Source: Pseudomonas hygromyciniae (GTDB lineage Bacteria > Pseudomonadota > Gammaproteobacteria > Pseudomonadales > Pseudomonadaceae). From it: DNA of 64,000 nt. Numbering within the stretch: position 1 is the first letter of the stretch; each line of letters opens with the position of its first letter. A program made the translations under genes and the position numbers. Below, piece by piece: positions 52,733 through 55,171 of this stretch. The notes below the pieces were generated by a model, which made no database searches, was not told where the DNA came from, and saw nothing but the letters and a program-made list of their open reading frames with translations. The DNA lies in assembly GCF_016925675.1 (NCBI RefSeq), contig NZ_CP070506.1, forward strand, positions 1 through 64,000, read 5' to 3'.

Positions 52733-54031
52733 ATGAAAGCATTTGTTATCGCGACCCTGGCCCTGTTCGGCAGTTGCTCGGTGAGCGCGGCTGAAACTGA
52801 CCTGATCAAACAAGGCGAATACCTGGCCCGTGCCGGCGACTGCGTGGCCTGCCATACCGCCAAGGGCGGCAAGCCGTTTGCGGGTGGGCTACCGATGGAA
52901 ACCCCGATCGGCGTGATCTACTCCACCAACATCACCCCGGACAAAACCGGCCTGAGGGATTACAGCTTTGAGGACTTCGACAAGGCCGTGCGCCATGGCG
53001 TCGCCAAAAGCGGTAGTACCCTTTACCCGGCGATGCCCTACCCGTCTTATGCACGTGTCAGTGAAACCGACATGCAAGCGCTGTATGCGTACTTTATGAA
53101 AGGCGTGGAACCGGTCGCTCAACCGAACCGGGACAGTGATATCCCCTGGCCCTTGAGCATGCGTTGGCCCCTGGCGGCGTGGCGCTGGATGTTCGCGCCC
53201 GAGGTGGCGGGCTATCAGGCCGAGGCGGGTGCCGACCCGGTGATCAGCCGTGGCGCCTACCTGGTGGAGGGCCTGGGACACTGTGGCGCCTGCCACACCC
53301 CACGGGCCCTGACCATGCAGGAAAAGGCTCTGAGCGCGTCTGATGGTGCGGCGTTCCTATCCGGCAGTGCGCCGCTGGAAGGCTGGATCGCCAAAAGCCT
53401 GCGCGGCGACCACAAGGACGGTCTGGGCAGTTGGAGCGAGGAGCAACTGGTGCAGTTTCTCAAGACCGGTCGCAGTGATCGCAGCGCGGTGTTTGGCGGT
53501 ATGAGCGATGTGGTAGTCCACAGCATGCAATACATGTCTGAAGACGACCTGACAGCTATCGCCCGTTACCTCAAGAGCCTGCCGGCAGTCGACCCCAAGG
53601 ATCAGCCGCACCAATACGACAAGCAGGTGGCCGAGGCGCTGTGGAAGGGCGATGACAGCAAACGGGGAGCTGCGGTGTACATCGACAACTGCGCGGCCTG
53701 CCATCGTACCGACGGCCATGGCTACACCCGGGTGTTCCCGGCGCTGGCGGGCAACCCGGTGTTGCAGACGGCAGACGCCACGTCGCTGATAAACATTGTG
53801 TTGAATGGCGGCACCCTGCCGGCCACTCACGCCGCGCCTTCGACCTTCACCATGCCGGCGTTTGCCTGGCGCTTGTCGGATCAGGAAGTGGCGGATGTGG
53901 TCAGCTTTATCCGTGGCAGCTGGGGTAACCAGGGCGCGCCGGTGAAGGCCGGCGAAGTCGCCGACCTGCGCAAGAGCGATCAACACAGCACCTCGGGCGA
54001 TGATCTGGGGCAAGTGACGTCGAGTCACTGA
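52733..54031 (+). CDS. Gluconate 2-dehydrogenase cytochrome c subunit (three haems)
   Basis: This is the membrane-linked cytochrome subunit that passes electrons from the flavoprotein to ubiquinone. The 432 residues have a signal peptide (MKAFVIATLALFGSCSVSAA) and three CxxCH haem sites: C37-V-A-C40-H41, C184-G-A-C187-H188 and C320-A-A-C323-H324. Three c-type domains agree with the family. It follows the FAD subunit with a 12-bp spacer in the same operon. Confidence 0.94.
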   Translation: MKAFVIATLALFGSCSVSAAETDLIKQGEYLARAGDCVACHTAKGGKPFAGGLPMETPIGVIYSTNITPDKTGLRDYSFEDFDKAVRHGVAKSGSTLYPAMPYPSYARVSETDMQALYAYFMKGVEPVAQPNRDSDIPWPLSMRWPLAAWRWMFAPEVAGYQAEAGADPVISRGAYLVEGLGHCGACHTPRALTMQEKALSASDGAAFLSGSAPLEGWIAKSLRGDHKDGLGSWSEEQLVQFLKTGRSDRSAVFGGMSDVVVHSMQYMSEDDLTAIARYLKSLPAVDPKDQPHQYDKQVAEALWKGDDSKRGAAVYIDNCAACHRTDGHGYTRVFPALAGNPVLQTADATSLINIVLNGGTLPATHAAPSTFTMPAFAWRLSDQEVADVVSFIRGSWGNQGAPVKAGEVADLRKSDQHSTSGDDLGQVTSSH

Positions 54032-54081
54032 TTCAGCCTTTGCCGCCCAACGGCACTGGTCAGAAACGCTGCGTCTCGATA

Positions 54082-54097
54082 CTGTATATAAAAACAG
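54082..54097. promoter_or_regulatory. LexA box (SOS operator)
   Basis: CTGTATATAAAAACAG fits the gammaproteobacterial LexA consensus CTGT-N8-ACAG exactly, with an AT-rich spacer. It is the core of an 11-bp-armed palindrome (54075-54085 and 54094-54104). It ends 15 bp before the radical SAM start codon, so LexA should block this gene until DNA damage. Confidence 0.88.
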
Positions 54098-54112
54098 TAT
54101 CGAGGCGCTTTC

Positions 54113-55171
54113 ATGTCCACTCCTCTGCCGCCACGTGGGCTAGGCACCGCCACTAACCTGCACAATCGCTTCGCGCCCACGGTCAGTGTGGCCGAGGACG
54201 ATGGCTGGTATCAGGAAGTACCGCCGACCCAGGGCACCGAAGTGCGCATCGAGACGGCGAAGACCATCATCACCCGCAACACCTCGCCGGACCTGCCATT
54301 CGATCGCTCCATCAACCCTTACCGGGGCTGTGAGCACGGTTGTATTTATTGTTATGCGCGGCCCAGCCATGCCTATTGGGACATGTCCCCGGGCCTGGAC
54401 TTCGAAACCAAGCTGATCGCCAAGAGCAACGCCGCCGAGGTGCTGGAGCAACAATTGTCCAAGCCCGGCTATGTGTGCGCGCCGATTAACCTGGGTTCCA
54501 ACACGGATCCTTACCAGCCCATCGAGCGCGAGTACAAGATCACCCGGCAAACCCTGCAAGTGCTGCTGCGCTATCGTCACCCGGTGACTATCGTGACCAA
54601 GGGGTCGTTGATCCTGCGCGACCTGGACCTGCTCACGGAGCTGGCCCGCCAGAGGTTGGTGGCGGTGATGATCAGCCTTACCAGCCTGGACGATGAACTC
54701 AAGCGCATCCTGGAGCCCCGCGCGGCGGCGCCCAAGGCGCGGCTGCGGGCGATCCGAGTGATGCGCCAGGCGGGCATCCCGGTGGGCGTGCTGTGTTCGC
54801 CGATGATTCCGATGATCAACGACAGCGAACTGGAAAGCCTGCTCGCCGAGGCCCATGCCGCCGGGGCGCAAAGTGCGGCCTATATGATGCTGCGCCTGCC
54901 CCTTGAGGTGGCGCCGCTGTTCGAGGAATGGTTGGCGGCCCATTATCCGCAGCGGGCGGCCCATGTGATGAGCCTGGTACGCCAGGTGCGCGGTGGCGAA
55001 GTCTATGACAGCCGCTTCGGTGTACGCATGCGCGGTGAGGGGCCGTTTGCCGATCTGCTGGCGCAACGATTTGCCAAGGCGATCAAGCGTTTGGGGCTGG
55101 ACCGACGGGAAGGGTTCAACCTCGATTGCAGTGCATTCTGTCCGCCCGGCAGGCAGCTGGCTTTGTTGTAG
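54113..55171 (+). CDS. PA0069-type radical SAM protein (SplB-like), SOS-controlled
   Basis: The 352-residue protein has the radical SAM motif C73-x3-C77-x2-C80 (RGCEHGCIYCYARPSHAYW) for a 4Fe-4S cluster. It has family segments INLGSNTDPYQPIEREYKIT and PVTIVTKGSLILRDLDLL, and two more cysteines near the end (C339 and C343 in DCSAFCPPG). It belongs to the COG1533 group that includes spore photoproduct lyase, but the reaction is not known. The adjacent LexA box points to a DNA-damage role. As I recall, the P. aeruginosa homologue PA0069 is also in the LexA regulon. Confidence 0.9.
   Translation: MSTPLPPRGLGTATNLHNRFAPTVSVAEDDGWYQEVPPTQGTEVRIETAKTIITRNTSPDLPFDRSINPYRGCEHGCIYCYARPSHAYWDMSPGLDFETKLIAKSNAAEVLEQQLSKPGYVCAPINLGSNTDPYQPIEREYKITRQTLQVLLRYRHPVTIVTKGSLILRDLDLLTELARQRLVAVMISLTSLDDELKRILEPRAAAPKARLRAIRVMRQAGIPVGVLCSPMIPMINDSELESLLAEAHAAGAQSAAYMMLRLPLEVAPLFEEWLAAHYPQRAAHVMSLVRQVRGGEVYDSRFGVRMRGEGPFADLLAQRFAKAIKRLGLDRREGFNLDCSAFCPPGRQLALL

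Follow-up and report, generated by a model that had tools for sequence, protein, structure and literature searches.

A LexA-type operator that may double as an RNA hairpin before a PA0069-family radical SAM gene in Pseudomonas

The LexA box upstream of a PA0069-family radical SAM gene of Pseudomonas hygromyciniae is the core of a longer palindrome, and the outer arms of this palindrome covary in the genus Pseudomonas. We propose, with a probability of about 0.6, that the operator has a second role as an RNA hairpin which silences read-through transcripts and from which SOS transcripts, starting between the arms, would escape. At the DNA level, LexA bound to the palindrome would cover the -10 element and repress the SOS promoter, and at the RNA level the palindrome and its covarying arms would fold and bury the Shine-Dalgarno of transcripts entering from the upstream gene. 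Since the predicted start lies inside the box, the SOS transcript would lack the left arm and would be freely translated. With an SOS-only start and a hairpin on read-through RNA, the enzyme would thus be made only after cleavage of LexA, regardless of the activity of the upstream operon. The features concerned, within the window (the whole 64-kb stretch of DNA analysed), are the following.

52733..54031, + strand: upstream gene from the open reading frame list, cytochrome-c-like by CxxCH motifs alone, a possible source of read-through
54057..54062, + strand: predicted -35 element TGGTCA, 17 bp upstream of the -10, from conservation
54071..54085, + strand: left arm of the hairpin, with a 15-bp stem, its outer bases covarying with the right arm
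54080..54085, + strand: predicted -10 element TACTGT, overlapping the LexA box, from conservation
54082-54097, no strand: LexA box CTGTATATAAAAACAG, from sequence and genus conservation
54094..54108, + strand: right arm of the hairpin, containing the Shine-Dalgarno, from fold and covariation
54102..54105, + strand: Shine-Dalgarno GAGG, 7 bases before the ATG, paired with 54074-54077
54113..55171, + strand: PA0069-family radical SAM protein of 352 amino acids, from NF033668 and the CX3CX2C cluster motif

LexA box and predicted promoter

In agreement with the earlier note, which had reported a perfect LexA box 15 bp before the gene, CTGTATATAAAAACAG was found at 54082-54097 with the ATG at 54113, 15 bases past it. 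It is the one strict CTGT-N8-ACAG site in the window and the only zero-mismatch match to CTGTATATNNNNACAG. By itself the motif carries no significance, because shuffles of the 64-kb window give 0.77 such sites on average; the box stands above chance because it is conserved, with its position, before the orthologues in Pseudomonas. Genome-wide, CTGT-N8-ACAG had 62 sites, compared with 21 for the reversed control; CTGTAT-N6-ACAG had 12 forward and 9 reverse sites, compared with 1 and 0 in the control. The genome encodes LexA (TIGR00498, 254 bits at C1:4078731), with a box of its own upstream.

The window gene is carried by 96 of the 99 Pseudomonas genomes, none being matched in the other 3, and removal of six genomes with broken or truncated matches (G282, G343, G352, G356, G359 and G367, some of which may be contig ends) left 90 upstream regions. 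A strict LexA-type box was present in 84 of these, 29-59 bases upstream of the matched start, and a box with one core mismatch in the other 6, so that the check proposed earlier, a box before the orthologues, came out in its favour within the genus. Among 80 named loci of GTDB representatives, which include one truncated match (L345) and one with 13 bases upstream only (L381), a slightly relaxed pattern found a LexA-type box within 200 bases in 48, including Stutzerimonas, Halomonas and its relatives, Marinobacterium, Marinomonas, Microbulbifer and a Halieaceae genome. The alpha-type GTTC-N7-GTTC was found in 10, mostly Alphaproteobacteria, and neither box type in 22, including Rhodanobacter, Dyella, Methylococcus and some Rhizobium and Agrobacterium. 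In the class sample the family was present in 92 of 274 genomes; 50 matches, one per genome, from these 92 were read upstream, and a strong box was seen in 8, P. hygromyciniae included. By these box counts, predicted SOS control of the PA0069-family gene is firm in Pseudomonas and patchy beyond it.

When the 90 regions were aligned on the box, TGG appeared at -25 to -23 and TA at -2/-1, with 17 bases separating TGGNCA and TACTGT. The bases T-25, G-24 and G-23 (0.79, 1.01 and 1.07 bits) were the best conserved upstream of the box flank, and the TA before the box carried 1.44 and 1.91 bits versus 0.92 and 0.58 for the symmetric TA after it. A simple general promoter scan did not flag the site at 54057-54085. 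A second SOS radical SAM gene, of family TIGR03916 and described below, has TTG at -25 to -23 in 45, 40 and 44 of 49 genomes and TA in 49 of 49. Conserved -35 and -10 elements in both genes therefore predict that both start inside the right half of the box, which in the window corresponds to about 54092-54094. Upstream of the -35, a GC-rich block of about CNGCCNAACGGNG is conserved in the genus at -39 to -27 from the box (54043-54056); none was seen upstream of the TIGR03916 gene.

PA0069 belongs presumably to the P. aeruginosa LexA regulon, and PA0669, PA0670 and PA3008 are taken here to be SOS genes. A microarray table, in the part that concerns them, lists PA0069 with these three (PMC6546240). 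SOS control itself is not new, because LexA control of splB/COG1533 genes, which like the window gene are radical SAM genes under a LexA box, is already in print in passages of PMC3323433 and PMC8565304. The former predicts it in alpha- and betaproteobacteria, and the GTTC-N7-GTTC of the Alphaproteobacteria orthologues agrees with this, splB being likened by name; the trait is said there not to be observed in gammaproteobacteria, whereas the box is general in Pseudomonas here. The latter includes splB in the core SOS set and mentions a COG1573-COG4277 operon (uracil-DNA glycosylase) under SOS control. A passage of PMC3765255 links SplB-like genes to ImuB-C, and one of PMC5435343 reports that a P. 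fluorescens gene named SplB, a likeness by name, rises after green-tea polyphenol.

Hairpin arms and the direction of the upstream gene

The longer palindrome with 11-bp arms that the earlier note had described around the box is present, with perfect arms at 54075-54085 and 54094-54104. The stem extends to 15 bp with one T.G pair and an 8-base loop (54071-54108), and the hairpin had a z of -5.4 in a 79-nt RNA fold. The mean unpaired probability of the six-base stretch TCGAGG in the right arm, with the Shine-Dalgarno, was 0.0003 in the read-through RNA versus 0.65 in the predicted SOS RNA. Across the genus the arms differ yet are often complementary, as in CCTCGATA/TATCGAGG, CTCCATTA/TAATGGAG, GCAATTAA/TTAATTGC and CCGGATTA/TAATCCGG, and at least 5 of the 6 outer pairs were formed in 30 of 87 distinct sequences, for which shuffles predict about 4. 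On the gene tree, 37-42 co-substitutions keeping Watson-Crick pairing were counted in register (three random tie-breaks), a count that omits arm positions 1-2, the LexA flank. Eight slid registers gave 4-17 such pairing-keeping changes, and the tree-based null had a mean of 9.5-10.8 and a maximum of 23 (p 0.002, the lowest value that 500 draws allow). Rfam gave 0 matches on 12 loci.

The SOS control part being known, the hairpin longer than the LexA site is the new result; the passages of PMC3323433 and PMC8565304 on these genes make no mention of a hairpin, unlike what is seen at the window operator. In a search of the literature by titles and the starts of abstracts, with few subscription journals, no LexA-operator hairpin was apparently described. 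In Tn10/IS10, IS50 and IS200, hairpins hide the ribosome-binding site of the transposase in read-through RNA and the element's own transcript escapes. In these elements, RNA that comes from outside conceals the start by folding, as we propose for the window gene; the present case differs in that the genes are chromosomal SOS genes and the core of the hairpin is a repressor operator.

The upstream gene of the window (52733..54031) ends 50 bases before the LexA box, and the same gene family precedes the orthologue in 20 of the 90 genomes. Upstream direction was assigned by coding potential and gene clusters, partly by hand, which gave 53 codirectional and 34 non-codirectional genomes, with three ambiguous ones (G295, G323, G338) left out of the 90. 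The clearest result on the neighbour link came from splitting the covariation by class: 7 co-substitutions versus 2.5 expected in the codirectional cytochrome set (p 0.006), 12 versus 4.2 in the other codirectional genomes (p 0.004), and 3 versus 3.3 in the non-codirectional genomes, where no covariation was seen (p 0.65).

The fold itself also differed with the direction of the neighbour. The mean energy of a 48-nt piece was -20.7 kcal/mol in codirectional versus -12.9 kcal/mol in non-codirectional genomes, and the mean z was -3.36 (n = 53) versus -1.18 (n = 34). A z of -3 or below was reached in 28 of 53 codirectional versus 5 of 34 non-codirectional genomes (Fisher 0.0006), the five being G292, G317, G333, G351 and G364; the hairpin is not universal, z being above -3 in 25 of the 53 codirectional genomes. 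Over 10 independent tree pairs, an average of 5.3 differed as expected, 0 in the opposite sense and 4.7 not at all, a borderline outcome (median p 0.06). One cytochrome-c-like upstream family is common to 19 of the 28 strong codirectional hairpins; when this set was removed, the contrast at z≤-3 was not significant (9/33 versus 5/34, Fisher 0.24), that at z≤-2 gave 21/33 versus 7/34 (Fisher 0.0005), and the full set of z values remained different (p 0.004). The accessibility contrast between the two classes was weak (p 0.045). Among the named loci, with direction taken from open reading frame length alone, Modicisalibacter L351 supports the link (z -4.4), while Pseudomonas L340 (z -5.3, opposite frames only) and P. 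mosselii L336 (z 0.2, codirectional frame) go against it.

These results bear on whether the arms need any RNA role. LexA is a dimer, the inner TA...TA flank is part of its consensus, and correction of quasipalindromes by template switching is a known mutational process, so that the arms could be an extended LexA operator or a palindrome perfected by such mutation. Such an origin would leave the varying arm sequence with its complementarity kept, and the absence of covariation among genomes whose neighbour is not codirectional, poorly accounted for. In addition, lexA's own operator is without such arms in 30 of 30 cases (hairpin in 0/30), a control that is weak on covariation because all seven sequences inspected have the same flanks. 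We regard arms without an RNA role as improbable.

Covariation itself is silent on which transcripts carry the hairpin, and a start upstream of the left arm would put it on every transcript, with temperature, a protein or an RNA setting translation. Against such a start, the conserved -35 and -10 elements place the predicted one inside the box in both genes, and an ever-present hairpin would not depend on neighbour direction; we consider it very improbable.

The main rival is 3'-end formation, in which the hairpin would serve the upstream gene as a terminator or a nuclease-resistant 3' end that has formed around the LexA palindrome, the hiding of the Shine-Dalgarno being a by-product. This rival likewise predicts a link with a codirectional neighbour, and the scan flags the window hairpin as terminator-like, with a borderline tail of 5 T in the 8 bases after the stem. 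Of 33 strong hairpins, 9 have a tail of 5 T in 8, and genomes with the cytochrome gene upstream have longer T runs than non-codirectional ones. Weak U tracts in both genes nevertheless make an intrinsic terminator somewhat less likely, 3 or fewer T being found in the 8-base tail of 20 of the 33 strong hairpins of the window gene's family and of 13 of 13 of the TIGR03916 gene. Rho-ended transcripts may be trimmed back to the hairpin, giving a nuclease-protected 3' end, and this rival, although unlikely in our estimate, is live.

Second SOS radical SAM gene and other operators

The reading of the operator as a hairpin that silences read-through RNA was also examined at the second radical SAM gene of the genome (C1:3746850-3748099; loci L079 and L156), a DNA modification/repair family member by TIGR03916 (536 bits), whose LexA box, box spacing, promoter and hairpin layout resemble those of the window gene. 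This family is taken here to be COG4277. Like the COG1573-COG4277 SOS operon named in a passage of PMC8565304, the gene lies under a LexA box, and its family differs from that of the window gene. It was found in 49 of 59 genomes, with a strict box in 33 and one core mismatch in 16. Direction was assigned by hand, with four ambiguous loci (L165, L172, L247, L255) left out of the 49, and a hairpin of z≤-3 was seen in 12 of 28 codirectional versus 0 of 17 non-codirectional genomes (Fisher 0.0013). Co-substitutions numbered 9 versus 3.5 expected (p 0.008), and 5 versus 1.9 at inner positions 3-8 alone (p 0.05). On the tree, for which 41 of the remaining 45 were used, the six independent pairs, too few to decide, gave 2.8 to 0 at z≤-3 (p 0.25) and 3.2 to 0.5 at z≤-2 (p 0.375).

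When the 14 LexA-type sites of the P. hygromyciniae genome were folded, only the window gene and L075 (-4.7) had z≤-3; other values were -2.9 for the TIGR03916 gene, -2.9 for L077, -2.0 for recA and 0.7 for lexA. The L075 site (C1:2103213) is a LexA-type box before a 112-residue open reading frame, which lies inside a 324-codon frame on the opposite strand. A second LexA-like protein, at C1:3448378-3448963 (L089, L092), was matched in two pieces, one above the LexA family cut-off (121 bits), and on the small contig C2, probably a plasmid, two LexA-type boxes (L086, L087) precede LexA/UmuD-like frames below that cut-off.

For Pseudomonas, perhaps with some of its relatives, the wider proposition that certain SOS operators are two-level switches, in which the LexA dyad sits at the centre of a hairpin that blocks translation of read-through RNA and is kept by compensatory evolution only beside a codirectional neighbour, stands in our judgement at about even odds. 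If true, a repressor site acting on DNA and then on RNA would explain the silence of tightly controlled genes in busy operons, and the operator-hairpin layout would be a simple signature to seek in other regulons. The recurrence of this design in SOS radical SAM repair genes of two families would suggest that stray expression of both enzymes is harmful; the function of two uncharacterised enzymes whose leakage is seemingly selected against is worth testing.

The PA0069-family radical SAM protein

The radical SAM gene reported earlier at 54113-55171 is present as such, its product scoring 489.9 bits against NF033668 (cut-off 360), and the cysteines C73, C77 and C80 of CX3CX2C were invariant in 32 family sequences. 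The kinship to the spore photoproduct lyase (SPL) group proposed with it held in part. The closest fold is that of SPL, and the CX3CX2C motif is alike; identity over the fold match was 12-14% and hhalign against SPL gave a probability of 7%. Listed matches of the window protein at E≤10 included neither of the SPL models TIGR04070 and TIGR03886, HMMER filters dropping most weak matches; a true SPL scored 509.6 and 114.6 bits with the same models. C141 of B. subtilis SPL is the suggested hydrogen donor, according to a passage of PMC3742179. A conserved counterpart of this fourth cysteine is absent among the 32 members, whose alignment has just three cysteine columns that are fully or almost fully conserved. 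As a whole, the earlier interpretation was partly supported.

A PDB sequence search with the single window protein gave no match, and the family profile matched SkfB alone at E below 0.001. An extra cluster formed by C-terminal cysteines was considered and rejected because these cysteines are not conserved across the family. Repair or tailoring of damaged DNA by SPL-like radical chemistry, with a different hydrogen donor, is the most likely role of the enzyme; that its substrate is DNA we infer.

Matches occurred in 37 plasmid records; in the 5 whose neighbouring genes were read, no steady DNA-repair partner was seen, and single records had PolX, uracil-DNA glycosylase, 3-methyladenine glycosylase or DNA polymerase III alpha nearby. 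The gut phage record PP511521 (L319) encodes a protein with a PA0069-family annotation one gene from a ParB-like gene, and the match covers 38% of the window protein.
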